Source of the DNA: Sulfurimonas sp. CG01_land_8_20_14_3_00_36_23
GTDB lineage: Bacteria; Campylobacterota; Campylobacteria; Campylobacterales; Sulfurimonadaceae
DNA: 64,000 nt
NCBI GenBank assembly: GCA_002781365.1
Contig: PETN01000016.1
Coordinates: 124,001 to 188,000, forward strand
Reading direction: 5' to 3'
Made by a program: the position numbers and the translations under genes. Shown here in pieces: positions 867 to 60,128 of this stretch. Numbering within the stretch: the stretch's first letter is position 1; each line of letters opens with the position of its first letter. Under the pieces are notes generated by a model, which worked only from the letters and a program-made list of their open reading frames with translations, did no database searches and was not told where the DNA came from.

Positions 867-3800
867 CTAAATAAATTTTTCGAATATAAGTCGTAGTAAA
901 TCTTTATTGATTACATTTCTAATAATCTCATGCACATACAAAGCGTCATCTTGACTTTCTGCTGTTTTTTGATCACTTATAAGTACCAGATAGGAGGTTA
1001 GTCCACTCTTTTTGTTCTCTTCTTTAATAATTGAAGAGAGAACAGGTATATCCAACCCTGCTAACTCTTTATCAAATAAGACAAGTTTATAGGAATGTTC
1101 TTTAGTTAATGATTCCAACTCTTTGATGTCACCAGCTACTTCGTAAGTATACCCCAAGGCAAGAAGAAGTTGAATATAAAGCTTAGATTCAAAAGAACTT
1201 TTTTTGGCTATCAGTATATCTGCTTTAAAGGTACTTTTCTTCTCCTCTGCTGCTTGTATAAAAATTTCTTCAGGTTCTTTCTCTGGTAAAGTTACTGGAA
1301 CATCTGCCTCAATCTCCTCTGAAACCTTGATGGGGGAAGTGGCATCAACAACTGAAATTTTTTCATCTTCTGGAGCCTTTGCCTCCTCTTCTTCAACAAT
1401 AAAATCAGCTAGAAAATGGTTGAGTAAAGAGAGAATTTCTGAGCGAACAAGAGGTTTTGTTGTATATTCATCAAGTCCTGCCTCTAAAAATCTTTCTCTG
1501 TCTCCTTTTAACGCATTTGCTGTCAGTGCTATGATAGGTACATGAGGCTGACTAAAATCCTCTTCATAGTCTAAGATTTCTCTTGTTGCTTCAACCCCAT
1601 CTAATATTGGCATTTGAATATCCATAAAGATAAGATCAAAGTTTCCATCTTTTCTTTTTTGAAAAGCATCAAGACCATTATTGGCGAGTGTAACAGTTAG
1701 TCCTAAATCTTCTAGAGTACGCTTGATGAGTTTTTGATTAATGACATTATCTTCAGCAATAAGAATATTGGCATTAAATTTTGATGCAATACCATGCATT
1801 TTCTTACGATTAGTCTTTTTTGCTTTCTTAGCATTGAAATTTTCAATATTGTAATTTTCAAGAGCTTGTTTGACTTTTGAAATATTTAGAGGCTCATAGA
1901 TGGTTTTAAATATATTTATATTTAAAGACTCTATTTTTTTCATATAGTAAGACTTCGTTAGAAGAATTAGAGCTTGTGGTAGTTTTTCTAACTTTAGTAG
2001 CATATCTTCTGTTGCATAATCATAATCAACAAACAATAAATCGTAGCTAACCTGTCTTTGAAGTGTTTCTAACTCTTCTAAATCTTTAAATAGAGTGTAG
2101 CTGACACCAAAAAAGTCTAGATATTCATGAAGGTATGTCTCTTGTCTTTTGCTCTTGTGTGAAGATGCTAATACTAAAGCATTTAAGTTTGAATAACTAT
2201 CTTCCTTGCTCTCGTTTAAGGTTTCAACTTCTTCAAAATCTAGAGTAAAGAAGAATGTAGTACCTTCTCCTGCTTCACTATGGAGGTCAAGTTTACCACC
2301 CATCAGTTCGACAAACCTACTTGAAATAGTTAATCCAAGACCTGTACCACCGTATTTACGGGTAATAGAAGTATCGGCTTGTGAAAAAGCTTCAAATATT
2401 CTTGATTTTTGTTCACTCGTAACACCAATTCCACTATCTTGTATTTCAAATCTTATTCTCGTTTTTCCCGGTTCATCAGAATAGATTTTTCGGATATCAA
2501 CATTGATACTGCCGGCACTACTTGTGAATTTTACAGCATTAGAGAGTAGGTTAATAATAACTTCTTTTATCTTTGTTGGGTCACCTTTAAGAGGATGTTC
2601 TAACTCTGGGTCTATAAAACAACCCAAGTCAATATGTTTCTCACTTGCACGTACAGCATAAACATCCACAGCGCTTTCAAACTCATCAATTGCATTGAAT
2701 ATTGTGTCTTCAATTTCAAGTTTATTGCTCTCAATTTTAGAAAGGTCAAGAATGTTGTTTATAATTTCCAATAGATTTTCTGAGCTTTTTTCAATAATCT
2801 CAACAAATTCATGTTGCTCTTCTTTTAGTCCTGTATCTTTTAAAAGTTCAGTAAAGCCAACAATTCCATTGAGTGGAGTACGAATTTCATGTGACATATT
2901 TGCAAGGAACATAGACTTCGCTTCACTTGCTTCTTGTGCAAATATTTTATCTTGTCTTGTTCTTTCAATGATTTTTTCTAGTAGTGCATATGCCTCTGCC
3001 GTTCCCTTTGAGGTTTGTAAATCAATATCAGTTTTGTCTGTATCTATATCTTCATTATCTTCAGCAACTCTCTTGAGTACATTTTCAAGGTTTTTAATGT
3101 TTGTTGCAATTTCATTCGATAATAGATATCCTAAAATTGCTAGTATGACTGCAATAAACCATACACTCAAAGTGACAGCAAGGAGCTGTAAAGCATTCTC
3201 TTGAACTGTTTGCGCTCTTGTATCCATACTAGTAAGAAGTAACTCTTCTGCTTTTGATAGGAGATTCGTTTTCTCAGAGAGCATAGTGAACCATATCCCT
3301 GGACTTGTTTCATATGCACCACTATTTGCTGCTGATAAAATAGCGGTTCGTTCACTGTTGATATCTTGCAAAAGCTCAATGCTGTCTTCACTTTTAAATA
3401 AAGCATTAAGCTGTGCAATCAGTGCCGCATTATGTAAGCTATCATAGTTAATAGCATCTGCTTTTCCGATAAACGATATCCATTTATTTAGTTCATCGTC
3501 TTCTGCCTTTGTTGAACGAGCAATTGTATAAGATATTAAGTCTCTCTCAGCAGCTGTGTACTCTTTTGCTCTTACCATTGTTATGTATATTGACGATAAT
3601 TCAGTAATATCTTGATCTGTTTGATTACTAGTAATTTGCTCTAGTTGTACAATGGCTTTATGTTGAACATTCCCATAAACAGTTTCATACACTTCATTGA
3701 AACCAGCTTCTTGTTTATCAACAAGTAGTCTGATTTTTTCTATTTTTTTCATTGAACTTGCCATAGAGTCTATGTTGGAGCATGTGGTACAAGTTTCCTT

Positions 3801-4130
3801 GCCATTTGAGTGGTCATGCAGTGCAACATTATTTGTAGTATGTTCAAAATACTCTTTAAATTTAGTGTCAACAATCTTTCTTTGTTGTATAAGTGATTTA
3901 AGTGTATTTTGAGATAAACCACCAAGGTACATGACGGTCATACCTCTTTCTCTAGATATATTTCCTACCAGTTCATTTAAATGTCTGTTTTCTGATAATT
4001 TATCTTCAAGAAGTTGTGCTGATTGAAAGTTTGTATACGATTCATATACAAAATAACTTGTCAATAATAAGAGAATAAATATCGGTAAAAGACTGATAAG
4101 TCTAAGTCTGTTTTTTAATCCTAAATGCAT
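867..4130 (-). CDS. Hybrid sensor histidine kinase with NIT-type periplasmic sensor
   Basis: A 1087-residue membrane kinase. A transmembrane helix at about 10-28 and a second at about 315-340 flank a periplasmic helical domain. That domain contains [15 protein letters not shown], typical of the NIT (nitrate/nitrite-sensing) family, plus an unusual CTTC pair near residue 115. HisKA carries His414 in [11 protein letters not shown], followed by a HATPase domain ([10 protein letters not shown]). A degenerate receiver-like segment follows. A canonical receiver has Asp837 in [10 protein letters not shown] last receiver-like domain at about 960-1087 keeps an Asp in LFDKEL. The acidic linker before it is low-complexity. 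The gene sits between the HPt scaffold and the single receiver, implying a multistep phosphorelay. The ligand is inferred from family only. Confidence 0.88.
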
Positions 4131-4139
4131 CTTATAAAC

Positions 4140-5954
4140 CTATAAATTCGAAATTTGTTTTAGTGTGATAATGATTTTGTCTATAGCTTTTTTGGCTACG
4201 CCTGCATCTTTTGTGTCAATTAAGCTCTCTAGCTCTTGATTGAAGTCATTGATTCTCATGTTGTCACTCATGCTCTTGATTTGTATAGCACTCTCTTTCC
4301 ACATGCCAAAATTATTTTGTTCAATAGACTTTTCAACCTCTTCTACTAAGAGGGAGGTTTCACTTAAATAATCTTTAAACAGCTCATCAAAACTCTCTTT
4401 ATCAATGCCAATTTCATGAGCGGCTGAATCTTTGTCGTATGAGAGTTCAAGCTCTTCCTCGTCGGCTTCCATTAAATCTATCTCTATCTCTGGCTCTGCT
4501 TCTAGAAGTTCTTCTTTCTCTTCACTAAAATCAACTTCTTCTACTTCTTCTCTCTTGAGCACTTCATCAGGCTCAAATAGATCTATATCTTCATCTATCT
4601 GCAACAACTCCTCATTGATTTCGAAGTCTTCCTCGTCTTGTACAGGCTTTGGCTCCTCGTAAGGAGTGTTATCCATATAAGACTCTTCTAGTGTAGGAGC
4701 AACTGCTACGGGTTCATCTTCTACTTTGAAGCTAATCTCGAAGTCATCTGTATCAATCACTTCCTCTTCTTTTGTTTCAGTTTGGGATATTTGTGGTGGT
4801 GATACAGGCGTGTTCTCTATACTTTCACCTGACAACTTGGCTATTATCTTATAGAAACGGTCTAAATTAATTTTTATTTCATCGTAATTACTTGAAGTAT
4901 TGACAATAGATAAAACTTCAAAAGCATCTTCTACTCTTAGATTAGCTGCAACCCCTTTGAGTTTATGAGATAAAACTTTGACATTCTCCATATCCCCATT
5001 CGTCAAAGAAGTATAGATTTCTTCCTTAAATTCAGCAGCTTGAGCAATGAAGTCTCCAATAAATTCTTCGATTAAATCAATTGGAAGTCCAAGTTCATCG
5101 GATGCGACCTTAGGATTATAGATGTACTCGTTCTCGAAGTTTGCATCACTACTTGAAGATGGCAGTGGAGTTTTTTCGACTATACTCTCTTTTTGTACTG
5201 TGCTCTCTTTAATTTTAGTTGCACTCTCTTGCGGTATAGTCTCTTCAAAATCTAAATCATCCATGTCTAAATCAAGTTTAATATCTTCATCTGCAAAGTT
5301 ATTAGAAGTTGAAGTGTTTATTTCTTGGGGAACTTCTCTCTCTTGAATCTTTGGTTTTTCTTCTAGGAAAATTTCATCATCATATTCATCTTCTATAACC
5401 TCAGTTGTTGAAGTGTCGAAGGTGTCGATAATAACACTCTTATCTTCAAACTCATAAGGGTCTTGCGCAACAGCTCCGAAGGACTCTATCTCAATAATTT
5501 CATCTTGAGGGTTTGTTGGAAGTTCTTCTAGGTTTTGGTTGGCAAAGAGTGCTGTTTTTGCAGTTGTCGTTTTTGGCGCTGGCTTCTCTTGAATAGCATG
5601 TGCTATTTGCCCATTTTCTATTGAAGACAACTCTCTTAAATTTGCTAGAGTAATGAAATATGCTTTTTGAGATGGATTGTCGATAAGATAAGCTGTATTA
5701 ATATGAATAGTCGCTCTATAATTTTTATTTTTAGCATGGATGATTACTTTTGAATCTTCACTACTTTGAGCACATGCAATAAAGTCTATCCAGTGTACAT
5801 GTTTAAAGTTATGCACATAGCCAGGAGTTTTCACAAACAAATCTGCGAAATCAGCTGATTCGCTTCGAAGTTGTAATAAATTTGAGAAGCCAAGAGCTTT
5901 TAAATCTGCTTCATCGATTCCTAAAAATTCTTTTTGGTAATTGTATATCAGCAT
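4140..5954 (-). CDS. HPt-domain phosphorelay scaffold with PAS-like N-terminus
   Basis: A 604-residue cytoplasmic protein. Residues 1-110 look PAS-like. A long, very acidic, low-complexity linker follows, then an HPt domain with phospho-acceptor His330 in LSHKLKGVAANL. After a second acidic linker, a second HPt-like helix bundle lies at about 500-600. At the position expected for its histidine it has Gln558 (IQIKSMSDNMRI), so it is probably not phosphorylated and may only bind partners. It lies 9 bp upstream of the hybrid kinase and 9 bp downstream of the PAS gene in one operon, so its likely role is to pass phosphate between the hybrid kinase and receivers. No output domain is visible. Confidence 0.75.
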   Translation of the reverse strand: MLIYNYQKEFLGIDEADLKALGFSNLLQLRSESADFADLFVKTPGYVHNFKHVHWIDFIACAQSSEDSKVIIHAKNKNYRATIHINTAYLIDNPSQKAYFITLANLRELSSIENGQIAHAIQEKPAPKTTTAKTALFANQNLEELPTNPQDEIIEIESFGAVAQDPYEFEDKSVIIDTFDTSTTEVIEDEYDDEIFLEEKPKIQEREVPQEINTSTSNNFADEDIKLDLDMDDLDFEETIPQESATKIKESTVQKESIVEKTPLPSSSSDANFENEYIYNPKVASDELGLPIDLIEEFIGDFIAQAAEFKEEIYTSLTNGDMENVKVLSHKLKGVAANLRVEDAFEVLSIVNTSSNYDEIKINLDRFYKIIAKLSGESIENTPVSPPQISQTETKEEEVIDTDDFEISFKVEDEPVAVAPTLEESYMDNTPYEEPKPVQDEEDFEINEELLQIDEDIDLFEPDEVLKREEVEEVDFSEEKEELLEAEPEIEIDLMEADEEELELSYDKDSAAHEIGIDKESFDELFKDYLSETSLLVEEVEKSIEQNNFGMWKESAIQIKSMSDNMRINDFNQELESLIDTKDAGVAKKAIDKIIITLKQISNL

Positions 5955-6448: not shown

Positions 6449-8251
6449 TTATTTATAAATATTTTTAATTACTTTTGCATCTTTAATATTTAAAATTGAG
6501 CTGATTTCTTCTAGGGTTTTTCCTTTCAAAGATTCAAATGTTTCAAAATGATTTAACAGCTTTACAATTTTTGCTTGAGATATCCCATTTAAGTTGAGCA
6601 GTTTGGACTCTTTATCAAGTTTAAGTTTTGTTTTTTTATGAAAAGTGATGGCACTTCTATGGGCTTCATCCCTTAAGTTCTGTGCCCATTGGAGTCTTTT
6701 ATCGTTTGGACTTAGCTTAAAACTCTTATCTTTTGTGTGTAAAATGTCGTGCGCTTTCCCTTTTGCACGATGCGATTTCGCATCAATTTTTTCTTTTGAG
6801 ATGGCAATCACATCGATAAAAACACCACTAGATTCTAAAATTTCCATTGCAAGTTTTAAAAGTGTTGTTCCCCCATCAATAATCCATAAGTCTGGTGGAG
6901 AATTTTTGGCAAAAGAGTTTACTCGTCTTGTTAAAGTTTCACGCATTTGTGCATATTCATCTTTTGCTTCTAGATGATAAGTTCTGTAGTTTTTCTTATC
7001 AAACTGTGCATTCTCATAGACAATCATTGCTCCAACAGTTGCAACTCCTGCCATGTGGGAGTTGTCAAAAACTTCCACTCTGTTTGGTACTCTTTGGAGG
7101 GATAATAGCTCTTTAGTTTCAGATAAAAGTTTACTCAAATCACTACTTTTATCTCTTTTTAAAAGCTCTTTAGCATTTAAAATAGCTAAATCAATGAGTT
7201 GCTTTTTGTCCCCTTTTAAAGGTGCTTTTATTATGGCTTTTTTCTCAAAAACTCTGCTTAAATGTTCCTCTATAATATCTATCCCCGCAAACTTTTTCAT
7301 GACTAAAATAGGTGCAATAATTGGCGGTTTTTCATTTGCATAAAAATCAAGAAGCACTCTTTGATAAAGTTCATCTTCGTCGTACCCCTCATTGAGGTTT
7401 ATGAAGTCGTGTGAGGATGAGATTATTTTCCCATTTCTCATAAATATTCGTACAACCACAGCTCTTGTATCCGAGTTATGTAAAACAAAAATATCATAGT
7501 TCTCATCACTTGCCAAGTCTATTTCACTTTTTATTTCCGAGCGGTTTATCCTCTCAATTCTATCTCGAAGTTCACCTGCCTCTTCAAAGCGCATCTCCTC
7601 AGCATAAAAACTCATCTTCTCAGTCAGTTTGTTGATAAGCACTTTTTTATTTAAAATCAGTTCTAAAGCTAAATTTAGTTCCTCTTGATATTTGGCATGT
7701 GGAACTTCTAACTCGCATGGAGCAAGACATTTGCCTATTTGGTAATAGAGACAGGCTTTTTTTGATTTTAAACAGACCTTTTTTTGAACCAATTTACATG
7801 TTTCATAGATAGAGTCTAAGATGTCTCTAGCCCCTACAGAGTAAGGACCAAAGTAGGTAACATCAGCATTTTTAATAATTTTTCTTGTTATATCAAATCT
7901 TGGATACTTTTGAGCGTTATCTATATAGATATAGGGATATGTTTTATCATCACGAAGTAAAATGTTGTACTTTGGAGCTAACTGCTTTATGAGAGAATTT
8001 TCTAAAATCAGAGCATCGTGTTCAGAATTTACAACGATGTAATTCATACTTACGGTTTGGCTAATCATTTTTGTGATTCTTGAAGAGAGCGTGGAATTTG
8101 CCCGTAGTTCAGGTGTAAAATGAAAGTAGCTCTTTACTCGATTGGAGAGATTTTTGGCTTTTCCGACATAAAGAAGGTGTCCATTTTTATCAAAGTATTG
8201 ATAGATGCCCGAAGAAGAGGGAAGCTGTTTTATGGTCTGTTCAAGTGTCAT
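6449..8251 (-). CDS. uvrC: UvrABC excinuclease subunit C
   Basis: A 600-residue nucleotide-excision-repair nuclease that makes both incisions around DNA lesions with UvrA and UvrB. The N-terminal GIY-YIG nuclease begins [24 protein letters not shown] Cys cluster lies near residue 165 ([17 protein letters not shown]). A UVR motif follows ([16 protein letters not shown]). The RNase H-like 5' nuclease includes [19 protein letters not shown] and LWIIDGG, and a helix-hairpin-helix ends the protein. The length is normal. It is translationally coupled to the DciA-like gene upstream by a 4-bp overlap. One copy of the dispersed GGCATGTGGA motif lies inside at 7694. Confidence 0.97.
7694..7704 (+). repeat. 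Dispersed motif GGCATGTGGAA, in uvrC
   Basis: 11-base match to the dispersed motif. In uvrC, on the opposite strand, it is read as Pro-His-Ala. Confidence 0.85.
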
Positions 8252-8685
8252 TTTTTTGCTTTTATGATTTCTTGTATGCTTTTGACAAGAGAATTGAGTT
8301 TCTCATCTTGAATATCTACACTGAAATTACCTGTGGCTCTCTCTGGATAATACATCTCTACTTTTTTGATTGGACTCTCTTTTTTTAGAGGGGTATGTGT
8401 GACAAAAGCTTTAATATCTTTAAAGGGTGTATCCGCACACTCTTTGGGCATGTGGAACTTTAAAGCACTTTTAATATTTTCTATATTATTATCAAACTCT
8501 TGTTTGCCTGCTGGATGACTAAGCACGAAAAAAAGCGTATCATTTTTTATGTATGAGAACTTTATCATCTTCTGTAGCGCAGGTATAAATATTGATTCTA
8601 TTCTCTTGATACATTTGTATCGAGAAAGCTTAGAAAATTGAGGTTTATTTTGAATAGAATTTATAATTTGACTAGCATTTTTCAT
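8248..8685 (-). CDS. DUF721/DciA-like protein
   Basis: A 145-residue protein. The first 95 residues have the DUF721 pattern: an N-terminal helix, then a segment like [29 protein letters not shown], which is where the family has its beta strand and hydrophobic helix. DciA proteins of this family load the replicative helicase in many bacteria that lack DnaC, so a replication role is plausible. The call rests on pattern recognition alone. It is coupled to uvrC by an ATGA overlap. Its 5' end overlaps the 5' end of the divergent lipoprotein gene. A motif copy at 8447 is read here as Phe-His-Met-Pro. Confidence 0.6.
8447..8457 (+). repeat. Dispersed motif GGCATGTGGAA, in DciA-like gene
   Basis: 11-base match. 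On the coding strand it is read in the register Phe-His-Met-Pro, different from the Pro-His-Ala register in uvrC. Confidence 0.85.
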
Positions 8686-13392: not shown

Positions 13393-14028
13393 ATGCCAAA
13401 ACCTATTTATCTTTTTTCAACTTCAAAACATCCAGAGGCTATCAATGTCGCTTCCTTGGAGATCGAGCTTCTTAAACCTACTATAGATTTTTCCAAATAT
13501 GACTATCTTATTATTACTTCAAAGCAAGCGAGTGAGGCTTTAAAACAGTATGATAAAAGTGAATACATTCATATACCAAGCTTATGTGTTTCAAAAAAAA
13601 GTGCAGAGGCTTATGAAGCTTTGGGTGGAAAAGTTTTGGCATGTGGAAATGGGTATGGAGAGGATTTGTCTAAAACAATTCAAAAGTTTCCACATGCCAA
13701 GAGATGGCTCTATTTACGTGCGGAAGTGATAGCCTCAGATTTTATTTCCACATGCCAAAGAGAGGGTTGCAATATTGATACTGTTGTTGTTTATAAAAGC
13801 CAATGTTCACAAAATATACGGCATGTGGAAATAGAGCAAAACGCAGTTCTTATTTTTACTTCACCCTCAAGCGTAAACTGCTTTTTAGATAATCATACTA
13901 TTAATCAGGATTCTAAGATTATTGTCATTGGTGAAACAACCGCAAAAGCTTTACCTCGTGATATTGAGTATATTGTCTCAAAAGAGAGAACAATTGAGAA
14001 CTGTATGGATATTGCTTTACGTCTATAA
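13393..14028 (+). CDS. hemD: Uroporphyrinogen-III synthase
   Basis: A 211-residue enzyme that closes hydroxymethylbilane to uroporphyrinogen III for haem and sirohaem. The family is poorly conserved, but the bilobed pattern is clear: YDYLIITSKQASEAL in the first lobe, WLYLRAEVIASDF as hinge, VVVYKSQ, AVLIFTSPSSVNCFL and IIVIGETTAKAL in the second. Four copies of the dispersed 12-13-base motif fall within 195 bp (13638-13832) and are read in four different registers. This is the densest cluster in the window. Confidence 0.88.
   Translation: MPKPIYLFSTSKHPEAINVASLEIELLKPTIDFSKYDYLIITSKQASEALKQYDKSEYIHIPSLCVSKKSAEAYEALGGKVLACGNGYGEDLSKTIQKFPHAKRWLYLRAEVIASDFISTCQREGCNIDTVVVYKSQCSQNIRHVEIEQNAVLIFTSPSSVNCFLDNHTINQDSKIIVIGETTAKALPRDIEYIVSKERTIENCMDIALRL
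13638..13650 (+). repeat. Dispersed motif, full 13-mer, in hemD (1 of 4)
   Basis: GGCATGTGGAAAT, read in hemD as Ala-Cys-Gly-Asn. Confidence 0.92.
13687..13698 (-). repeat. Dispersed motif, 12-mer, in hemD (2 of 4)
   Basis: TTTCCACATGCC on the plus strand, read in hemD as Phe-Pro-His-Ala. Confidence 0.92.
13744..13756 (-). repeat. Dispersed motif, full 13-mer, in hemD (3 of 4)
   Basis: ATTTCCACATGCC on the plus strand, read in hemD as Ile-Ser-Thr-Cys, a register different from the second copy. Confidence 0.92.
13820..13832 (+). repeat. Dispersed motif, full 13-mer, in hemD (4 of 4)
   Basis: GGCATGTGGAAAT, read in hemD as Arg-His-Val-Glu-Ile, a register different from the first copy. Confidence 0.92.
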
Positions 14029-14065: not shown

Positions 14066-14298
14066 ATAATCTGAGTGGTTCGAGACTTCGTGTATATGAG
14101 GGTTCTACATTTTCAAACTGCGAATACGTAGAGCTTTAGTGTGTTGGTGTTTTCGCTTGAGGTATGTTGACTCTGCCGATGAAAATGTCGCCGTTATAAA
14201 GCACTCTCTTCGCCCAAATTCGGCTTTTAGAACCAAGCCAATTACGAGACGGCCGCTTGGGTTATTGTCTACGAGTTTTTAACTGAGGTCTATTTTTT
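14066..14298 (+). ncRNA. ssrS: Probable 6S RNA upstream of purD
   Basis: About 230 nt without a credible reading frame lie between hemD and purD, are less AT-rich than ordinary spacers here, and are framed by a TATAAT box and a terminal T-run (14293-14298). The segment holds several helices, for example ACCAAGC pairing with GCTTGGGT around 14234-14265. As I recall, the 6S gene of Campylobacterota sits directly upstream of purD, so position supports the call. The hallmarks of RNase P RNA, SRP RNA and tmRNA are absent. Ends are approximate. 6S RNA binds sigma-70 RNA polymerase in stationary phase. Confidence 0.62.
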
Positions 14299-21783: not shown

Positions 21784-21796
21784 GGCATGTGGAAAT
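21784..21796 (+). repeat. Dispersed motif, full 13-mer, intergenic
   Basis: GGCATGTGGAAAT in the gap of about 205 bp between tRNA-Leu and the PocR-GGDEF gene. I see no credible gene in that gap. Confidence 0.9.
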
Positions 21797-21872: not shown

Positions 21873-23861
21873 ATGGTAGAGAGTAAAAAGATGGTTATAA
21901 CTACACAAGAGTGGGAAGAGAATCTTAAATTTAGTAATTTAGTGGATATCGCTGCCTTTGAACGATTGATGGAAAGTTTATACAAAGCTACTGGAATTCC
22001 AAATGGACTTGTAGCCGAAGATGGTGAACTTCTTTCTCAGATTGGTTGGACGAATGCCTGTGCCCTATTTCACCGCATCAATACACAAACAAATCAGCAG
22101 TGTCAAGAGAGTAATATTGAGCTTATGCAGAGCCTGCATGAGGATGATATAGCTTGTTCCAAGTGTAAAAATGGACTTCTTGATTATGCGACACCTATTG
22201 TCATTGAAGGTCATCGACTTGCAACTTTATTTTTGGGACAAGTTCTAAGTGAAACGCCTGAAATGGAGTTTTTTCGTAAAAGAGCGAAAGAGTTTGATTA
22301 TGACGAAGCCAAATATATTGAAGCCATTCGTGCTGTACCTATTGTCGAAAAAGAACAGATGGAATCTCTTATGGAATGCATGGTTGGGATGGCTCAAATG
22401 TTAGCTTCCAGTGGTTTGGCAAGACTGCGCCAGATAACGCTTGAGCGTGACTTGAATAAGAGTGATGAACAGCGTATAGAACTTGAAGATATTTTGAATT
22501 TCGCGCCTATAGGAATCGGCTGGTCAAATAGTGATGGCAAGATAGAATATGTAAACCATCAGTTTACGAAGCTCTTTGGCTACACGCTTGAGGATTTACC
22601 TGATATTAAAACATGGTTTAACAAAGCATACCCAGATCCAGAGTATCAAAAAGTGCTTATTAATCCATGGCGTCTAGAAGTGCTTGCTGCAAAAGAGAAG
22701 AGTACACCTATCCCAGAATTGGAAGCTACTATAACATGTAAAGATGGAAGTAAACGACATGTTTTTATTCGTGCTTCATGGGTTGGTGAGAAACGACTGA
22801 TGAATTTTAGCGATATGACTGCGCATTGGAAAAGTGAGCAAAGAAATCAAGCGCATGACGCAATGCTTGGAATGGTTGCAAAGGGTTCAGCTTTAAGTGA
22901 GATACTCCATAATATTGTGCATACGATTGAGAATGAAGAATCCTCTTCCCTCTGCAGTATATTATTGCTTGATGAGGATGGAAAACATTTGTTGTCTACT
23001 GCAGCACCTAGTCTTCCTGAGTTTTATAACGATGCAATCAATGGTGTAGAAATCGGTATGGGAGTTGGTTCTTGTGGTACAGCTGCTTTTCTTGCGGAAC
23101 GTGTTATTGTTGAAGATATTATGACACATGCATACTGGTAGCCCTATAAGCAACTTGCACAAAGTGCAGGCTTGAGAGCGTGTTGGTCGGAGCCAATTCT
23201 TTCTACTGATGGTCAAGTTCTGGGTACTTTTGCAATATACCATAAAGTACCTGCTCATCCAAATGCTGAGGATATTGAGCGAATTAGTTTTGCCGCGAAT
23301 CTTGCTGCAATTGCAATAGAACATAGAAACTCACGTGAAGAGCTAGAGCGTCGGGCATATACTGATTATTTGACTGGACTTTCCAACCGACGTTATTTTA
23401 TCGAGAAGGCAGAAGCTGAACTGGTGCGTCATCATCGCTATGGTGATACTATCTCTTTACTTATGTTTGATATTGATTATTTTAAACAGGTAAACGATCA
23501 GTATGGACATAGTGTAGGCGATTTAGTACTGCAAAAGATTGCTGAAATTTGTCGCACAATTTTGCGTGAAATAGACATAATTGGTCGTATTGGTGGCGAA
23601 GAGTTTGCTGTCTTATTGCCAAAGACTGATGTAGAAGAGGCAAAAAATGTTGCCCAACGCTTGCGTATTGCGATGTCAGAAGGAAAAGTAGAAATGCCAA
23701 CAGATATAGAGCCTCCGAAGTTTACAGCATCTTTTGGTGTCATGTCTAGTGACAAAGATGCTATTGACATTGATGAACTTTTAAATCAAGCAGATGATGC
23801 ACTTTATAAAGCAAAAGAGAGTGGACGTAACAGAGTTTGTGTAGCAGAAAAAATAAAGTAG
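21873..23861 (+). pseudogene. PocR-PAS-GAF-GGDEF diguanylate cyclase interrupted by an in-frame amber codon
   Basis: One reading frame of 663 codons is broken only by TAG at 23139-23141. Before it lie a PocR ligand-binding domain (VDIAAFERLMESLYKATGIP through CSKCKNGLLDYATPI), a PAS domain (LNFAPIGIGWSNSDGKIEYV) and most of a GAF domain. After it, with no frame change, come the rest of the GAF domain (LRACWSEPILSTDGQVLGTF) and a GGDEF domain with an intact GGEEF active site and RxxD inhibitory site. The stop replaces one residue in the middle of GAF (HAYW-stop-PYKQLA). All other codons look maintained, so the mutation is recent, or a sequencing error, or is read through. Confidence 0.85.
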
Positions 23862-23873
23862 GCATGTGGAAAT
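23861..23873 (+). repeat. Dispersed motif, full 13-mer, at gene end
   Basis: GGCATGTGGAAAT begins at the last base of the stop codon of the GGDEF gene, upstream of the terminator hairpin. Confidence 0.9.
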
Positions 23874-33302: not shown

Positions 33303-33330
33303 GGCATGTGGAAATATATTTCCACATGCC
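33303..33330. terminator. Perfect 28-bp palindrome made of two dispersed-motif copies
   Basis: A full 13-mer GGCATGTGGAAAT (33303-33315) is followed after two bases by its exact complement ATTTCCACATGCC (33318-33330). It lies 20 bp after the haem-binding gene and 15 bp before the end of the convergent FIST-GGDEF gene. Such a hairpin can serve as a bidirectional terminator, as paired uptake sequences do in Haemophilus and Neisseria. No T-run is adjacent. Confidence 0.75.
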
Positions 33331-35291: not shown

Positions 35292-35304
35292 ATTTCCACA
35301 TGCC
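35292..35304 (-). repeat. Dispersed motif, full 13-mer, containing a start codon
   Basis: ATTTCCACATGCC: its ATG is the start codon of the following gene (Met-Pro-Lys). Confidence 0.9.
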
Positions 35305-36220
35305 AAAACTCGCACTTCTTTTTTTACTTTCACTCCTCTGTTTAGATGCACAGATGCAAGAGTATTCGATTTTACCTGAGAAGAAAAATAGGGTGAAATC
35401 TATGCAAATCCATATCCTCGATTCAAAAGAGCTAAAGTTTAAAAAGCTCCATGGCATCAAAGTGACAGAACTCTCTGCTTTAGCCTACAATGAGGGTACT
35501 TTGTATGCCTTGTCTGATAGAGGCAATCTGTTTCATTTTGCGTTAAATATAGAAAATGAGAAGATTGAGAGTCTCGTCTTGAAGCAAGCCTACAACTTAA
35601 AAAATAGAAAACATAAAGATTTGAAAAAAGATATGCGTGACTCTGAGGGTTTAGCTTTTGTTGATGGCTCTTTGGTTATCTCTTTTGAGACCCAGCCAAG
35701 AGTTGAACTCTTTTCCTTAGAGGGCGTGAAGAGAGAAGAGAAAAAGATACATAAAGATTTGCGAGATAAGAAGCGTTATCAAAATGAGAACAAAGCGCTT
35801 GAAGCGGTCGCTTATAGTGAGAAGTATGGAGTTGTAACCGCACCAGAAGTTGCTTTAAAGAGAAAAGATAAAGCGTATCACACACTCTACGCAGAGAAAA
35901 AAAGTTGGGACTTCTTGGCATGTGGAAATATTACTGCTTTAGAGTTTATCAATGAGAATGAACTACTCGTCCTTGAGAGAGTCTATGATAAAAAAAGTCT
36001 CAAAGGTTTTATAGCTTTAACAAAAGTTTTTTTAGATGCGTGTAACAATGGAGTCTGCAACTCTAAACTTTTAGCGAAACTTGAGAGTAAAAAAGGGTGG
36101 AGAATTGATAACTTTGAAGGTTTGAGTAAAGTAGCTCAAAACAGATATTTGATGATAAGTGATGATAACGATAGTAAAAATCAAAAAACACTTTTAGTGC
36201 TTTTTGAAATTAGTGATTAA
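35300..36220 (+). CDS. Exported phytase-esterase-like beta-propeller protein
   Basis: A 306-residue protein with a signal peptide (LALLFLLSLLCLDAQ). ELSALAYNEGTLYALSDRGNLFHF, DMRDSEGLAFVDGSLVISFE, NKALEAVAYSEKYGVVTAPE and RIDNFEGLSKVAQNRYLMISDDN are the repeated blocks of the esterase-like phytase domain (PF13449). It is probably periplasmic, with unknown substrate. The start codon lies inside a motif copy, and a second copy at 35917 is inside the gene. The 3' end overlaps convergent trpA by 11 bp. Confidence 0.8.
   Translation: MPKLALLFLLSLLCLDAQMQEYSILPEKKNRVKSMQIHILDSKELKFKKLHGIKVTELSALAYNEGTLYALSDRGNLFHFALNIENEKIESLVLKQAYNLKNRKHKDLKKDMRDSEGLAFVDGSLVISFETQPRVELFSLEGVKREEKKIHKDLRDKKRYQNENKALEAVAYSEKYGVVTAPEVALKRKDKAYHTLYAEKKSWDFLACGNITALEFINENELLVLERVYDKKSLKGFIALTKVFLDACNNGVCNSKLLAKLESKKGWRIDNFEGLSKVAQNRYLMISDDNDSKNQKTLLVLFEISD
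35917..35929 (+). repeat. Dispersed motif, full 13-mer, in phytase-like gene
   Basis: GGCATGTGGAAAT, read as Ala-Cys-Gly-Asn. Confidence 0.92.
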
Positions 36221-36950
36221 TCTCGTTTTTTAAGATTTTAGCGAGCTGGGAACACTCTGCGATTTTTTGTTTGTAGCTGAGCTCCTCTTTTAAAAGTATC
36301 TCTACAAAAGCACTTCCGACGATGACACCATCCGCACCTTTTACCTTCTCTTTTGCAGTTTTTGCATTGACCCCGAAACCTACATAGACTGGGGTTTGAG
36401 AATACTTTTTGATGGAAGCTAGAAAAGGGGCTAAATCTTCACTTACCCCTGAACCCGTGATACCTGTATATGCAACCATATAGATAAACTTTTGTGCATC
36501 TGCAACGACCTCTTTGATGCGTTCCTCTGTATCAGTAGGCGCTACAAAGCTAATGTTACTAAGAGTATTGGCTTGAAATAAATCTGTATAAGCAAGAGCC
36601 TCTTCATGCGGTAAATCGGGGATAATAAGCCCACTTACACCAAGCTCTTTGGCATGTGGAATTAAGAGATCCATCTTTTGTTGATAAAAGCTGTTGAAGT
36701 ATCCCATCCAAAGTGTATCTACTTTTGGAGCAACGCTTTTTGAGATTTCTAAAAGATGTTTAAACTTGAAACCAAGGGAGAGTGAAGCGTGATTTGCTTT
36801 TTCTATTAAAGGTCCATCTGCTACTGGGTCTGAAAAAGGAACGCCAAGTTCAAGTGTGTCTACTCCATTCTCTCCGAGTGCAAGTGCTAAATCTACTGTA
36901 AATGATTTCTCAGGATACCCTGAAGTTATATATGCTACTAATTTTTTCAA
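36210..36950 (-). CDS. trpA: Tryptophan synthase alpha chain
   Basis: A 246-residue TIM barrel that cleaves indole-glycerol phosphate to indole. LELGVPFSDPVADGPLIEKAN carries the catalytic Glu, with IPDLPHEEA, YMVAYTGITG and VGFGVNAKTAKEKVKGADGVIVGSA following. It starts at TTG 36950, immediately after the stop codon of the HPt gene. Other trp genes are not nearby. A motif copy at 36651 is read as Ile-Pro-His-Ala. Confidence 0.96.
   Translation of the reverse strand: MKKLVAYITSGYPEKSFTVDLALALGENGVDTLELGVPFSDPVADGPLIEKANHASLSLGFKFKHLLEISKSVAPKVDTLWMGYFNSFYQQKMDLLIPHAKELGVSGLIIPDLPHEEALAYTDLFQANTLSNISFVAPTDTEERIKEVVADAQKFIYMVAYTGITGSGVSEDLAPFLASIKKYSQTPVYVGFGVNAKTAKEKVKGADGVIVGSAFVEILLKEELSYKQKIAECSQLAKILKNEINH
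36651..36661 (+). repeat. Dispersed motif, 11-mer, in trpA
   Basis: GGCATGTGGAA, read on the opposite strand as Pro-His-Ala. Confidence 0.85.
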
Positions 36951-40306: not shown

Positions 40307-41178
40307 ATTTCAGGATGGTCGTTTTTCCATCTGCGGTGGAGCCAGAACCAAAATTTTGGCTCCTCTCGTATGAGTTTTGTGAGCCAATCTGCTTGAAGTT
40401 GTGTCGCTTTTAAAATATCACTTGCTTCATCATCCGTTTTTTCAACTGGAATCTCATCAAAAAGCATAAGTGTATAGTTCTCTTCGTCATCCGTTCTAAT
40501 ACTCACAGGGATAATCGCCGCATTAAACTTTCTCGCAAGGTATGCAGGTGTAGAAGTCTGGCGTATGCTTTTTCCCATAAAATTGACCATAACTCCCTCT
40601 TTAGGGTTGATGTTCGTATCGATTAAAATCCCACAACCAACCCCTTTTTTGAGATACTTCACAAGTGGACGCACCACATTTGTCTTCTCCATAGAGATGT
40701 TTCCAAATCTATCGCGAGACTCTAAAAGCCACTCTTGATAGGTTCTGTTTTTCATGTTTTTATAGACTGCAACGATAGGCTCGATAAAGGCACCGATAGA
40801 ACTGCCGCCAAGTTCCCAAGAGGAGTAGTGTGTCGTTGCATAGATAACTGCTCTCCCTTCTTTATGTACTTTTTCAACTGCTTCTCTATTTTGTACGGTG
40901 ACCTTATTTGCCAAATCCTCTTTACTCATGTGCCTAATTTCCATCACATACATAAAGTTGAGTGCTAGATTTTTAAAAGCATATTTTGTAATCTCTTTTT
41001 TCTCTTCTTGAGAGAGCGTGTTGTCAAAGGCAAAGTCGAGATTGTCATAAGAGACTTTTCTATATCTCGAAGAGGCATGGTATGCTAAAAGCGCAAGGCT
41101 TGTAAAAAAGCCTTTTCTCACTTTTTTTGGCAGAGCCATTAGAAGTTTTTCCAGTAGTAAAAATAGTTTAAATCCCAT
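40294..41178 (-). CDS. Lipid A acyltransferase (LpxL/HtrB family)
   Basis: A 294-residue inner-membrane acyltransferase that adds a secondary acyl chain to Kdo-lipid A. An N-terminal helix, the catalytic H-x4-E motif in TTHYSSWELGG, IDTNINPKEGVMVNFMGK and FWLHRRWKNDHPEIY at the end are family marks. It overlaps the heptosyltransferase start by one base, so lipid A acylation and inner-core assembly are co-expressed. Confidence 0.93.
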   Translation of the reverse strand: MGFKLFLLLEKLLMALPKKVRKGFFTSLALLAYHASSRYRKVSYDNLDFAFDNTLSQEEKKEITKYAFKNLALNFMYVMEIRHMSKEDLANKVTVQNREAVEKVHKEGRAVIYATTHYSSWELGGSSIGAFIEPIVAVYKNMKNRTYQEWLLESRDRFGNISMEKTNVVRPLVKYLKKGVGCGILIDTNINPKEGVMVNFMGKSIRQTSTPAYLARKFNAAIIPVSIRTDDEENYTLMLFDEIPVEKTDDEASDILKATQLQADWLTKLIREEPKFWFWLHRRWKNDHPEIYES

Positions 41179-42194
41179 TATTTTAGTAACTCCAAAGCTT
41201 TTGTTTTGATTGACTTAACCTCTATCTCTTTGATAGAAAAATCATTTTTATCTATTTTGTTAATATCTACTTTTGAGGGAGATTTTATACCGATGTTCGA
41301 AGCTGTTTCATAAATCATGCGTGTTGTCGTTGGACCAAAAAGTGTGATGGAGGGAATATTTTGCGCCCATGCCATGTGTGTTGGTCCCGTGTCATTTCCT
41401 ATAAGCAGATCAACCTTTGAAACCAAGTCGATGAGTTGTGTCAAAGAGAGCTTTGGTGCTAAGCTTGCATAAGTAGAGTTCTCACAAATCCACATGCCAT
41501 CTTCTCTCTCTTTCTCACTTCCCCAGAGGATGATGCAGTTTTGCCCAAGTGCATCACAAAGTTTTGCGACACACTCTTTTGGATATTTTTTAGACTCCCA
41601 TGAAGCGCCTATAACAAGAAGAATATTTTTTTTATCACTAGATAAAAGAGCTTCCATCTCCGCTGTGAGTTTGGCATGTGGAAATATTGCTTCTTTGTTT
41701 AAAAGCATCTCTTGGGTTATCTCAAATCCAAGCGCGTCTGCTACTAAAAAAGTGTTTCTTGTAACAATGTTCTCATCATACGCAACATGCGAAGTGGTTT
41801 TGTAAAAAAAAGATGCCAAACCCTCTCGTGCAGAATCTTTGTCATAGCCATGTACATTCTCTCCAATGAGTCTAGCAACGAGGGCAGATTTGAGAAGTCC
41901 TTGAATGTCGATGATAAGGTTAAAAGTACCTAAAGAGCGAAGCGCTGAAAAACTCTTCTTTAAAAGTGAAAAGCTTTTTTCTCGTTTGAGTTTTTTGAGG
42001 TTGAGCGTATGCACGGCAGAAATGAGGGGATGATTTGTCAAAAGAGGAGCAAAAACCTCTTCTGTTATCCATTCGATTTTGGCATGTGGAAATTTTTTGT
42101 GAATAAACTGGAGTACAACGGCTGTGTTGACAATATCTCCAAGTGCTGAGAGTCTTACTATCGCTATACGTTTTGTATCTTTTTTCATTGGCAA
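41178..42194 (-). CDS. waaC: Lipopolysaccharide heptosyltransferase I
   Basis: A 338-residue GT9 enzyme that transfers the first heptose to Kdo of LPS. RIAIVRLSALGDIVNTAVVLQFI, LVIGASWESKKYPKE, and the nucleotide-sugar site LLIGNDTGPTHMAWAQNIPSITLFGPT are characteristic. The downstream gene is the lipid A acyltransferase. Three motif copies lie in it (41489, 41673, 42081), the second densest gene after hemD. Confidence 0.94.
   Translation of the reverse strand: MPMKKDTKRIAIVRLSALGDIVNTAVVLQFIHKKFPHAKIEWITEEVFAPLLTNHPLISAVHTLNLKKLKREKSFSLLKKSFSALRSLGTFNLIIDIQGLLKSALVARLIGENVHGYDKDSAREGLASFFYKTTSHVAYDENIVTRNTFLVADALGFEITQEMLLNKEAIFPHAKLTAEMEALLSSDKKNILLVIGASWESKKYPKECVAKLCDALGQNCIILWGSEKEREDGMWICENSTYASLAPKLSLTQLIDLVSKVDLLIGNDTGPTHMAWAQNIPSITLFGPTTTRMIYETASNIGIKSPSKVDINKIDKNDFSIKEIEVKSIKTKALELLK
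41489..41498 (-). repeat. Dispersed motif, 10-mer core, in waaC
   Basis: TCCACATGCC on the plus strand, read in waaC as Gly-Met-Trp-Ile, a third register of the forward motif. Confidence 0.75.
41673..41685 (+). repeat. Dispersed motif, full 13-mer, in waaC
   Basis: GGCATGTGGAAAT, read on the opposite strand as Phe-Pro-His-Ala. Confidence 0.92.
42081..42093 (+). repeat. Dispersed motif, full 13-mer, in waaC
   Basis: GGCATGTGGAAAT, read on the opposite strand as Phe-Pro-His-Ala. Confidence 0.92.
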
Positions 42195-42253
42195 AATTAT
42201 ATCTAATTTAGTTGTTTTGTAGCATAATGAGAGAAAATCTTTGGGGACTGTTT

Positions 42254-43642
42254 ATGAGAAAATTTAAAATCAAAATGATTATCTTGGCATGTGGAATCTT
42301 ATTTCCACATGCCATAAATGCAGAGATAAGTGGAATAGGCTTCGCTCAGACAAACCAAGAAGCGAAAAAAGAGGCACTTGCTGATTTGGCACAGGTTATA
42401 AAAAGTGAGGTGCGTAGTAGCTTTGAATCTAGCACAACTAACACAAGTTCAAAAGCAAAGTCCAACATCAAAATAAGTTCAAACTTACCAATACTTGGAG
42501 CGGATTTCACTTTTGTAGACCGCGCTTTGGAGGTGGAAGCGAGTGTGAAACTGACTCCCCAAAAGGTAAATAGACTCTACACACAAAAACTTCAAAATCT
42601 AAACACAGAGATAAATGCACTCCTCAAAGAGGTGAACAATGCAACCACATCCACTCTGAAACTCAAGCTCTATGAAGCTATCTTTTCACTCTTAAATGAG
42701 TATGACAGATATGAGAGTGTTGCGGTTATTTTGGGTGCAGAGCTTGCACAAAGAGCTCCAATCACAAAAGCAAAAGTACAGGTTGCGTTAGAAAAACTAA
42801 ACTCAAGTATAGACTCTTTAGCGATGGCAGCTACAATCTTGGCAAAAAGTTTTACAGAAGAAAAAATCTTTGTCTATCCCCCTCTGCTTCAAAACAACAC
42901 GAGTGTAGCTGAGTTTGGTTCACTTTTTCAAAAAGAGTTACTCTCCAAACTCAAAAGTGCAAAAAGCCCAAAAGATGCCTCATTCTTACTCGTTGGAGAG
43001 TACATACTCACAAAAAATGCAATGGTTTTGCACTATGCACTTTTAGATACAAAAACAAATGAAGTCGTGCGTTCAAAAACAATCAATATAAATCCACATG
43101 CTTATAAAGATGTAGTAACCCAGTCAAAAGAGGTCGATTTTGATGCACTTTTAAATGCTGGTGTAATAAGTTCAAGTGATTTAAAAGTATCTCTTAACTC
43201 TAACAGAGGAAGCGAAAATCTGCTCTTTAAGAATGAGGAGGAGATAGAACTTTTTGTAAAACTTAACAAGATGGGCTACCTCTACATCGTTGGCTACACA
43301 CAGACAAAAGAGAGAAAACTCTCCTACCTTTTAGAACTCAGTGAAGGTGAGGGTGATAGTCGGTTTGTAAAGTTCGTAAATGCAGATGATGCTTCAAGAT
43401 GGATAAGTCTGGGGATATTTACAATCGAGCCTCCTTTTGGAGTTGAGAGCATACAAGTTATAGCCTCAAACCAAAAAATAACTTCACTTCCACATGCCGA
43501 GTATGACGAGCAAAGCGGTTATCATATTATCTCAAAAGATATAGAAAAAGCACTCTCACAAACTCGCGGACTCAAGAAAAAAGTGAGTCAAAAAGTAGAG
43601 ATGAGTGAAGATGTTATGAGTTTTACGACTATGAAGAAGTAA
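42254..43642 (+). CDS. Exported LPP20-like/DUF4384-type protein
   Basis: A 462-residue protein read from ATG 42254, which has GGGGA 11 bases upstream; in-frame ATGs at 42212 and 42227 are less likely. A signal peptide (KMIILACGILFPHAINA) precedes an LPP20-like domain (ISGIGFAQTNQEAKKEALADLAQVIKSEV). A long helical middle follows, then a beta-rich region (NEEEIELFVKLNKMGYLYIVGYTQTKERKLSYLL) like DUF4384. DUF4384 is often linked to caspase-fold proteins in bacteria, and a caspase gene follows 43 bp later. It is probably periplasmic. The domain calls are pattern-based. Confidence 0.75.
   Translation: MRKFKIKMIILACGILFPHAINAEISGIGFAQTNQEAKKEALADLAQVIKSEVRSSFESSTTNTSSKAKSNIKISSNLPILGADFTFVDRALEVEASVKLTPQKVNRLYTQKLQNLNTEINALLKEVNNATTSTLKLKLYEAIFSLLNEYDRYESVAVILGAELAQRAPITKAKVQVALEKLNSSIDSLAMAATILAKSFTEEKIFVYPPLLQNNTSVAEFGSLFQKELLSKLKSAKSPKDASFLLVGEYILTKNAMVLHYALLDTKTNEVVRSKTININPHAYKDVVTQSKEVDFDALLNAGVISSSDLKVSLNSNRGSENLLFKNEEEIELFVKLNKMGYLYIVGYTQTKERKLSYLLELSEGEGDSRFVKFVNADDASRWISLGIFTIEPPFGVESIQVIASNQKITSLPHAEYDEQSGYHIISKDIEKALSQTRGLKKKVSQKVEMSEDVMSFTTMKK
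42286..42313. repeat. Inverted pair of dispersed motifs inside a signal-peptide coding region
   Basis: GGCATGTGGAAT (42286-42297) and ATTTCCACATGCC (42301-42313) form an 11-bp stem with a 6-base loop. The pair encodes Ala-Cys-Gly-Ile-Leu-Phe-Pro-His-Ala, the hydrophobic core of the signal peptide. Confidence 0.9.
43488..43498 (-). repeat. Dispersed motif, 11-mer, in LPP20/DUF4384 gene
   Basis: TTCCACATGCC, read as Leu-Pro-His-Ala. Confidence 0.85.
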
Positions 43643-43679
43643 AACAGTTTATTGCATCCAAAAAAACAAAAAAGGAAAT

Positions 43680-43690
43680 ATCCACATGCC
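43680..43690 (-). repeat. Dispersed motif containing the caspase-gene start codon
   Basis: ATCCACATGCC (10-base core at 43681-43690); its ATG at 43686 is the start codon of the WD40-caspase gene (Met-Pro-Lys), as also seen at 35292. Confidence 0.75.
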
Positions 43691-47110: not shown

Positions 47111-47722
47111 ATGATAGCAATAGTTGATTATAACATGGGAAATTTGGCAAGTGTAAAGAATGCATTTGCGAAGTTGGGAAAAGAGACCGTAGTTGAGAGT
47201 AATCCCGAGAATTTTAAAAAATATGAGAAGCTCATTTTGCCTGGTGTTGGTGCTTTTGGAGATGCTATGGAGCATTTAAGAGAGCGAAATATGATAGATG
47301 CTATACAAGAGTATGCCGCGAGTGGTAAACCTATGCTAGGTATCTGTTTAGGTATGCAACTTCTCTTTGATAGTAGTGAAGAGTTTGGAGCAACACAAGG
47401 ACTAGGTCTTATCAAAGGAAAAGTAGTAGCTTTTGATACAACAAAATTCTCAGAACCACTCAAAGTTCCACATATGGGGTGGAATAAAATGTTTACAAAA
47501 TCACACCCTTTGTTTAAGGGTCTTGATGAGGAACACTATCTCTACTTTGTTCACTCTTTTCATGCTGTGTGCGACAACGAAGAAGATGTTATAGGAACTA
47601 CGGAGTATGGCTATAAATTTGCTTCAGCTGTGGCATGTGGAAATATTTATGGTATTCAGCCTCATCCAGAGAAAAGTCACAAAAATGGACTTGCAATTTT
47701 AGAAAATTTTATCAATTTATAA
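47111..47722 (+). CDS. hisH: Imidazole glycerol phosphate synthase, amidotransferase subunit
   Basis: A 203-residue class I glutaminase that supplies ammonia to HisF for IGP and AICAR formation. The nucleophile Cys is in [16 protein letters not shown] and the His-Glu in IQPHPEKSH; the N-terminal [11 protein letters not shown] is typical. hisA follows 22 bp later; hisF is not in the window. A motif copy at 47632 is read as Ala-Cys-Gly-Asn. Confidence 0.97.
47632..47644 (+). repeat. Dispersed motif, full 13-mer, in hisH
   Basis: GGCATGTGGAAAT, read as Ala-Cys-Gly-Asn. Confidence 0.92.
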
Positions 47723-57101: not shown

Positions 57102-58040
57102 ATGAACTTTGAAGATTTAAATGCGCTTGGTGCGGCGAGAGAGCCATTTTTCTTTCTCTGTGATTTTAAAGCGCAGAATCTTGAATATACTCTTTTAAAA
57201 GATTTAAAAGAGAGCGATATAGAGTTCTGTATTGATGAGAACTATCTCCAAAAAGTGCATGAACATAGATTTAAAAAAACTCCAAACCCTTTTGCAGAGT
57301 ATAAAAAAAAATTTGATTTTGTGATAGAAAAAATCAAATCTGGCGAGACCTACTTACTCAACCTAACACAACCTACAAAAATAGAGACTCCACTGACCCT
57401 AAAAGAGATATATGCTCTGGCAAATGCTCATTATAAACTGAGATATAAAGATAAGTTTGTATGCTTCTCTCCTGAAAAATTTATACAACTCTCAGGGGAA
57501 AGAATCCATACCTACCCGATGAAAGGGACAATCGACGCTTCACTTCCACATGCCAAAGAGCAGATACTCAATAACAAAAAAGAGATGGCAGAACATGTTA
57601 TGGTTGTGGATTTACTTCGAAATGATTTATCGATTGTGGCAGAGGATGTGAAAGTTGAAGTCTTTCGATATGTTCAAACTATCGACTCTGGTGAAAAAAA
57701 ACTTCTACAAGTAAGCTCACATATTAGTGGTTATGTCGGAGCCAATTGGCATGTGGAAATTGGGAATATCCTCAAAGCACTTTTGCCCGCTGGAAGTATA
57801 AGTGGCGCACCAAAAAAAAGCACATTAGAGATTATAGAAGAAGTTGAAGGGTACGAGAGAGGATACTTTAGTGGTGTTTTTGGCCTCTACGATGGAGAAA
57901 AGCTCGACAGTGGTGTTATGATTAGATTTATAGAAAAAACTGAGGATGGTTTTATTTATAAAAGCGGTGGCGGTATAACTTTAGATAGCGATGCGATTTT
58001 AGAGTATAATGAACTCCAAGATAAAATCTATTTGCCATAA
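57102..58040 (+). CDS. pabB: Aminodeoxychorismate synthase component I
   Basis: A 312-residue chorismate-binding enzyme converting chorismate to aminodeoxychorismate for folate. It is a short form lacking a long N-terminal domain. GETYLLNLTQPT, YPMKGTIDA, VDLLRNDLSIVA, AGSISGAPKKSTLEII and FIYKSGGGITLDSDAILEYNE are the active-site blocks. Two motif copies are inside (57544, 57748), read as Leu-Pro-His-Ala and Trp-His-Val-Glu. Confidence 0.93.
   Translation: MNFEDLNALGAAREPFFFLCDFKAQNLEYTLLKDLKESDIEFCIDENYLQKVHEHRFKKTPNPFAEYKKKFDFVIEKIKSGETYLLNLTQPTKIETPLTLKEIYALANAHYKLRYKDKFVCFSPEKFIQLSGERIHTYPMKGTIDASLPHAKEQILNNKKEMAEHVMVVDLLRNDLSIVAEDVKVEVFRYVQTIDSGEKKLLQVSSHISGYVGANWHVEIGNILKALLPAGSISGAPKKSTLEIIEEVEGYERGYFSGVFGLYDGEKLDSGVMIRFIEKTEDGFIYKSGGGITLDSDAILEYNELQDKIYLP
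57544..57554 (-). repeat. Dispersed motif, 11-mer, in pabB
   Basis: TTCCACATGCC, read as Leu-Pro-His-Ala. Confidence 0.85.
57748..57760 (+). repeat. Dispersed motif, full 13-mer, in pabB
   Basis: GGCATGTGGAAAT, read as Trp-His-Val-Glu-Ile. Confidence 0.92.
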
Positions 58041-59451: not shown

Positions 59452-60128
59452 TGAAGAAGCTACTCTTTTTATATTTTGGTGTTGGCTTCTTCCTTTTTTT
59501 GAATATTTTTTATCACTCGTTTTATGAGGCACAAGAGTTTTCCTTTTTTACATATACTCTAACTCCTCTTGGACTTTTACTGCTTTTTTACCTTTTTTCA
59601 GTGACGCTTATTTTTTTTATGCGTAAGAGTTCTATGCTTTATTTTAAAGCAAAAGAGACTCTTTTCGCCTCTACATTTGTTCACTTTTCTCTCTCTTTAT
59701 CTCTTGTTTTATGCATGCAATATACAGAGTTTTTACTCTTTCAATTTGCTTATCTTCTTTTCATTGTACGTTATGAGAACAAAAGAGTAAACGTTCTCTT
59801 CTCTCTTTTGTATCTTACTTTTGTGCATCACTCTCTGCTTCAGCTTTTTATATCTGAGTTTGTTTTTCTCTATTTTATAAATCTTTTTCTTCTCTCCTAT
59901 CTCCTCTATAGGGTGGATTTAGGGATAAGAAAAGGAGACGTTTTGGCATGTGGAATCTTCTTCTTACTCCTTCTTTTTATGTGGAATATTTCTGAGGCGT
60001 TTAGATATAGTTTATATGTCTGGCTGGATATAGTAGATGTGCAAAATGATGCCTCACCAGTTGTCGTTTTTGCTTTAACCATCCTGCATTCATCTCTTCT
60101 CTTTTTTATAGAGTTTAAAAAAAAATGA
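59451..60128 (+). CDS. Hydrophobic membrane protein, unknown
   Basis: A 225-residue, very phenylalanine- and leucine-rich protein with about six to seven transmembrane helices and short charged loops. I recognise no family. It is coupled to the histidine kinase by a one-base overlap, so it may help that kinase sense or anchor. A motif copy at 59945 is read as Ala-Cys-Gly-Ile. Confidence 0.65.
   Translation: MKKLLFLYFGVGFFLFLNIFYHSFYEAQEFSFFTYTLTPLGLLLLFYLFSVTLIFFMRKSSMLYFKAKETLFASTFVHFSLSLSLVLCMQYTEFLLFQFAYLLFIVRYENKRVNVLFSLLYLTFVHHSLLQLFISEFVFLYFINLFLLSYLLYRVDLGIRKGDVLACGIFFLLLLFMWNISEAFRYSLYVWLDIVDVQNDASPVVVFALTILHSSLLFFIEFKKK
59945..59956 (+). repeat. Dispersed motif, 12-base variant, in membrane protein gene
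   Basis: GGCATGTGGAAT, matching the first 11 bases, read as Ala-Cys-Gly-Ile. Confidence 0.85.

Follow-up and report, generated by a model that had tools for sequence, protein, structure and literature searches.

The window, by which we mean the whole 64,000-nucleotide stretch analyzed here, comes from a genome that guaA placement assigns to Sulfurimonas, and its open reading frame at 13393–14028 encodes HemD (Pfam HEM4, PF02602, E = 9.7e-27; the match to the NCBIfam uroporphyrinogen-III synthase model PRK05928, E = 1.6e-27, lies under that model's own cut-off). The gene has guaA on one side and a purD-leader RNA on the other (the purD RNA motif, Rfam RF01069, scores 70.6 bits at 14128–14262 on the plus strand, in the hemD–purD gap). 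A preliminary description had reported four copies of one word, GGCATGTGGAAA, within 13638–13832 of hemD, each in a different strand and frame register, and a letter search of the 64-kb window bore this out: all four are exact 12-mers, two forward and two reverse. We refer to this word as d1.

13393–14028, plus strand: hemD (uroporphyrinogen-III synthase; open reading frame and PF02602), host of the four copies
13638–13649, plus strand: d1 copy A, GGCATGTGGAAA, read (L)ACGN
13687–13698, minus strand: d1 copy B, read FPHA
13745–13756, minus strand: d1 copy C, read (I)STC(Q), in a slot where d3 genomes have their own word (see below)
13820–13831, plus strand: d1 copy D, read (R)HVEI, in another slot where d3 genomes have their own word

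Comparison of HemD sequences from 76 species places the four copies at sites where codons have been replaced, without insertion. Motif-free relatives do not keep the same residues there, their segments mostly lying 4–7 mismatches from the word, and the four sites vary more than HemD does on average (mean entropy 1.98 versus 1.46, P = 0.04), as expected from the earlier suggestion that these segments are lineage-specific and poorly conserved. The copies are also clustered beyond the genome's own word density (4 copies in 636 bp, Poisson P = 7.5e-5, or about 0.03 after correction for hemD being 1 of 418 open reading frames tested), an excess that low constraint explains only in part.

The word extends well beyond hemD. 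With up to one mismatch permitted, the window contains 24 matches against 0.24 expected from shuffles, so chance is excluded as the origin of the word in the window. Matches outside hemD, including two convergent pairs, are as follows.

4296–4307, minus strand: d1 word, exact
7694–7705, plus strand: d1 word, last base differs
8447–8458, plus strand: d1 word, last base differs
21784–21795, plus strand: d1 word, exact
23861–23872, plus strand: d1 word, exact
33303–33330, both strands: convergent d1 pair, a 28-nt perfect inverted repeat forming a terminator-like hairpin between convergent open reading frames
35293–35304, minus strand: d1 word, exact
35917–35928, plus strand: d1 word, exact
36651–36662, plus strand: d1 word, last base differs
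41673–41684, plus strand: d1 word, exact
42081–42092, plus strand: d1 word, exact
42286–42313, both strands: another d1 pair in convergent orientation, close to the 5′ end of the open reading frame 42212–43642
43487–43498, minus strand: d1 word, last base differs
43679–43690, minus strand: d1 word, one mismatch
47632–47643, plus strand: d1 word, exact
57543–57554, minus strand: d1 word, last base differs
57748–57759, plus strand: d1 word, exact
59945–59956, plus strand: d1 word, last base differs

Across the genome (2.43 Mb in 102 contigs) GGCATGTGGAA occurs in 734 exact copies, 354 forward and 380 reverse, with none for the reversed-word control; this abundance on both strands supports selection (the preliminary view) or drive acting on the word at the DNA level. 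The consensus drawn from 182 copies in 465 kb is TTTGGCATGTGGAAAT, with a core, GCATGTGGA, that is near-inviolate: against 128 perfect 11-mers there are 48 forms with a single mismatch, and in 42 of these the variable position is the first base or the last. The word is non-palindromic, and its flanks are graded over about 15 nt (T-rich upstream, A/T downstream). As side observations, CTCTTTGG often stands just before the core, and CAAAAGAG / CTCTTTTG are mildly overrepresented in the window and at most Sulfurimonas loci, whatever their dialect. Genome-wide, near-exact and strand-balanced words could be the sites of a chromosome-organizing, replication, repair or partition protein (of the KOPS, Chi, matS or nucleoid-protein kind), and TGTGGAA does resemble part of a DnaA box; the overall strand count, however, gives no orientation skew of the KOPS/Chi type.

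Copies fall mainly within genes but are enriched between them, with 105 genic and 29 of 141 (about 21%) intergenic in about 8% of the sequence, a split that rests on a simple ORF caller placing 92% of the sequence in open reading frames and on small numbers. The genic copies occupy all six registers, with a preference among them (12/11/35 on the reverse strand, 11/13/23 on the forward). Convergent pairs within 60 bp are mostly intergenic (6 of 8), and the pair at 33303–33330 sits between an open reading frame whose stop is at 33282 on the plus strand and one ending at 33346 on the minus strand, its hairpin folding as RNA at −20.3 kcal/mol (z about −6 on either strand). Such placement of pairs between genes argues against sites for a chromosome protein. 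The terminator-like hairpins would be compatible with the words being remnants of some mobile element once dispersed in the genome, or of a regulatory or terminator repeat, an explanation we find barely credible: flanks are unrelated from copy to copy beyond a few bases, the HemD copies replace codons without insertion, and about three quarters of copies lie in genes, in all six registers. Dense word use is also seen in two adjoining open reading frames at 41178–43642 of the window, one holding three d1 words and the other four (FPHA is the reading of many of the copies), and in priA, with six (L084 495–2384; G000:C1, about 60.5–62.4 kb).

A survey of 135 Sulfurimonas genomes (draft assemblies, with a carrier defined by at least 30 copies) reveals d1 to be one of four hyperabundant words, the others having been seen at other loci and confirmed on longer stretches: d1, GGCATGTGGAA, is plentiful in some genomes, with a maximum of 946 copies, and stands at 0–7 in most; d2, TGATGCTAAG, has 911 copies in one genome; d3, TTACATGTAAG, reaches 208; and d4, TAAACGCAGY, reaches 646. 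Strand balance holds for d2, d3 and d4 as well. One word attains at least 30 copies in 65 of the 135 genomes, more than half having none of the four, and two words at that level are found together in none, against 9.3 expected if the words were independent (a statistic that ignores kinship). Five genomes (G061, G096, G149, G143 and G137) hold only 33–104 d1 words and look like lineages losing the dialect. On the guaA tree d3 forms one clade, while d1 requires four changes and d4 two, both being polyphyletic; kinship among the genomes, and the framing of hypotheses once the data had been seen, affect the exclusivity and tree tests alike. Beyond the genus, d1 stands at 0–1 copies in the 16 other families sampled, including other families of the order. 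A fifth word sought de novo in the wordless genomes G104, G131 and G012 gave nothing comparable in 25–64 kb.

This distribution bears on the chromosome-protein explanation, which we judge unlikely: the words change wholly between close relatives and recur in distant ones, whereas the genus would be expected to conserve a DNA-binding protein with a housekeeping role, and more than half of the genomes do without any of them. The four are also dissimilar in form. Whereas d1 and d2 are non-palindromic, d3 (TTACATGTAA) is palindromic, and d4, although non-palindromic, is short and degenerate; d3 and d4 could differ in nature from the other two.

The gene hemD is a hot spot for word writing in all four dialects. 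In nine d1 genomes hemD contains 2–6 d1 copies at recurring slots, centered in the alignment at about positions 1, 42, 179, 250, 300, 358, 432 and 516, even though their HemD proteins are only 57–69% identical to that of the window. The local word is enriched in hemD of d2, d3 and d4 genomes too. Of the d1 slots, 358 and 432 are filled by the d3 word where d3 is the dialect, and d2 or d4 words stand at slot 516. From this sharing of slots between dialects, together with the residue variability, HemD is read as a permissive gene, overwritten time and again with whichever word its lineage uses. At two of the sites, part of the peptide (Thr-Cys, His-Val) recurs in d3-word genomes because d1 and d3 have a common core, CATGT (ACATG), and the sites consequently look like reusable writing slots. 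The earlier interpretation is supported, with the refinement that reusable slots describe the sites better than random drift does. Exchange of HemD between d1 species was considered as the cause of shared slots and set aside, the slot-masked tree being poorly resolved and having no clear d1 clade. In G061 the HemD sites lie 2–3 mismatches from the d1 word, again the appearance of a lineage losing its dialect.

Slot sharing also helps to weigh the possibility that the words arise from restriction–modification or repair bias (as HIP1-like words), being a methylation target or the product of a mutational process. The palindromic d3 would suit it, since HIP1 and many methylation sites are palindromic; we nonetheless hold it to be very unlikely, as d1, d2 and d4 are non-palindromic, the graded d1 flanks of about 15 nt exceed the usual restriction–modification site, genomes as a rule avoid restriction–modification targets and do not accumulate them, and a bias of this kind predicts neither word exclusion nor the sharing of hemD slots.

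Taken together, the abundance, near-exactness, strand balance, tolerance by proteins, use at terminators and exclusivity of the dialects lead us to read the Sulfurimonas words as DNA-uptake words fixed by biased transformation, an uptake role that we infer with a probability of about 0.77. Uptake sequences are known to accumulate by biased uptake and recombination (PMC7811141). On the uptake reading, TTGGCATGTGGAAAT (core GCATGTGGA) would serve the present Sulfurimonas lineage as its DNA-uptake sequence. A type IV pilus would bear a sequence-specific receptor that captures word-bearing DNA, the pilus and the ComEC channel would import this DNA, and the imported fragments, by recombining, would spread and maintain the word through molecular drive at any site where proteins tolerate it. 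Elsewhere in the genus, lineages would use other words, one dialect per genome, and HemD, weakly constrained and with about eight permissive slots, would fill with the word of its lineage.

The genome of the window encodes type IV pilins, a T2SS-like operon and an MSHA-like locus (a DUF6701 protein and minor pilins). Of the 135 genomes, 123 have ComEC, which is equally frequent in wordless ones, so competence genes do not discriminate; pilins, found in 14 of 14 genomes sampled, do not separate word-rich from wordless genomes either. We observe that priA immediately follows a pair of pilin genes, that comEC is found some 5 kb beyond, and that this pilin–comEC neighborhood recurs across the genus. 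A literature search of open-licence papers found no uptake or transformation experiments in Sulfurimonas.

If the words are uptake sequences, a receptor would be expected to follow the dialect, and a minor pilin encoded between aclA and the rRNA operon is a tentative candidate, with the odds somewhat against it. The protein (about 215 aa; G000:C92:32136–32792 in the window's own genome) bears the motifs LSHIRYTQHL near its N-terminus and FDxLGRP and PETGY near its C-terminus; its gene directly follows aclB–aclA (ATP-citrate lyase), tRNA-Ile/Ala lie beside it, and the rRNA operon itself is presumed. Its profile matches solved structures almost only at the pilin N-terminal helix, and the GspH/FimT Pfam model (PF12019) has no match in 26 genomes. 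In the pilin tree the d4 genomes that have the gene, six in the sample, all fall together in a single clade (support 100/99), as do the d3 genomes (100/100). The adjoining aclBA genes scatter these six over three positions (a single d4 clade is rejected, p = 1e-35), and for ComEC a single clade of nine d4 genomes is rejected (p = 5e-8). Similarly, ComEC and PriA together place G101 with d3 and d4-A, and placing its pilin with d3 is rejected (p = 0.018). The d1 pilins are not one clade (p = 0.001, or p = 0.056 with G104 added). G104 has a d1-like pilin but lacks d1 words and the other three words (L243, L272, L162); it may represent a recent receptor acquisition, or may carry a word as yet unfound. 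The gene is missing from the word-rich drafts G080, G103, G014 and G105, possibly owing to contig breaks at the rRNA operon. As a separate observation, aclBA (L221, L283, L228) seems to have been transferred between species, grouping G101 and G104 with part of d1, against ComEC/PriA.

It is an even bet that the words are uptake sequences whose receptor is another pilin or an outer-membrane protein, the aclA-adjacent pilin tracking d4 by chance or through co-transfer of pilus genes. A second major-type pilin groups five of the eight sampled d4 genomes (96/91), which indicates that pilins move promiscuously, and G104, wordless with a d1-like aclA-adjacent pilin, is an exception that fits. Set against this, no pilin but the aclA-adjacent one brings the six sampled d4 genomes together, and the T2SS pseudopilins have no dialect signal. 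The T2SS-like cluster (G000:C44) was itself rejected as a receptor source: it is present in 10 of 14 genomes, and its pseudopilins do not group by dialect.

Returning to uptake by a dialect-specific pilin, we put at evens the broader proposition that Campylobacterota possess an independently evolved uptake-sequence system, with several unrelated words, in which receptor minor pilins that move between species rewrite the word of their host, partitioning a genus into at least four mutually exclusive mating types for DNA exchange. Neisseriaceae and Pasteurellaceae have been named as the only families known to have sequence-specific DNA uptake (PMC12616744, 2025; PMC7811141); uptake words of the two families are also treated in a terminator survey of 2026. 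Our search of open-licence papers found no uptake sequences reported in Sulfurimonas or Campylobacterota, and a review of the genus Sulfurimonas does not mention competence. Should the uptake reading be right, the words would constitute a third, independent case, in another phylum and in abundant marine and vent chemolithotrophs; with unrelated words in a single genus, and dialects shared by distant species, it would become possible to test comparatively whether uptake specificity originates and changes through selection or molecular drive, a question of long standing, and the Sulfurimonas pilin offers a receptor candidate whose specificity is directly assayable.

Among known systems, HIP1 of cyanobacteria resembles d1 as a hyperabundant short word running through coding sequence. 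Unlike d1, which has neither property, HIP1 is a palindrome and is conserved in many genera. The DUS of Neisseriaceae, recognized by the minor-pilin receptor ComP, is, like d1, a non-palindromic word of 10–12 nt present in hundreds to thousands of copies on both strands. It comes in lineage dialects and forms inverted pairs at terminators (PMC3630211, PMC1852404), and it has a minor-pilin receptor, which in Sulfurimonas is a candidate only. The differences are that Sulfurimonas belongs to a different phylum, Campylobacterota; that d1 (GGCATGTGGAAA) and d2–d4 are unrelated to the neisserial GCCGTCTGAA and lack its CTG core; that the Sulfurimonas dialects are mutually unrelated (only d1 and d3 share CATGT) whereas those of Neisseria are near variants; and that copies per genome reach 946, against about 1,900–5,900 for most Neisseria dialects (PMC3630211). 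Inverted word pairs at terminators have been described for DUS and USS alike (PMC1852404). The USS of Pasteurellaceae shares with the Sulfurimonas words a short core with AT-rich flanks, balanced strands, dialects and depletion in constrained genes; its cores, AAGTGCGGT / ACAAGCGGT, are unrelated to them, and its predicted receptor is the minor pilin PpdA/ComN (PMC12616744), the Sulfurimonas candidate being a different minor pilin, beside aclBA and the rRNA operon. The palindromic d3 and the short, degenerate d4 are less DUS- or USS-like than d1 and d2. By sequence, then, the Sulfurimonas words belong to neither DUS nor USS, and yet they appear to work like them.
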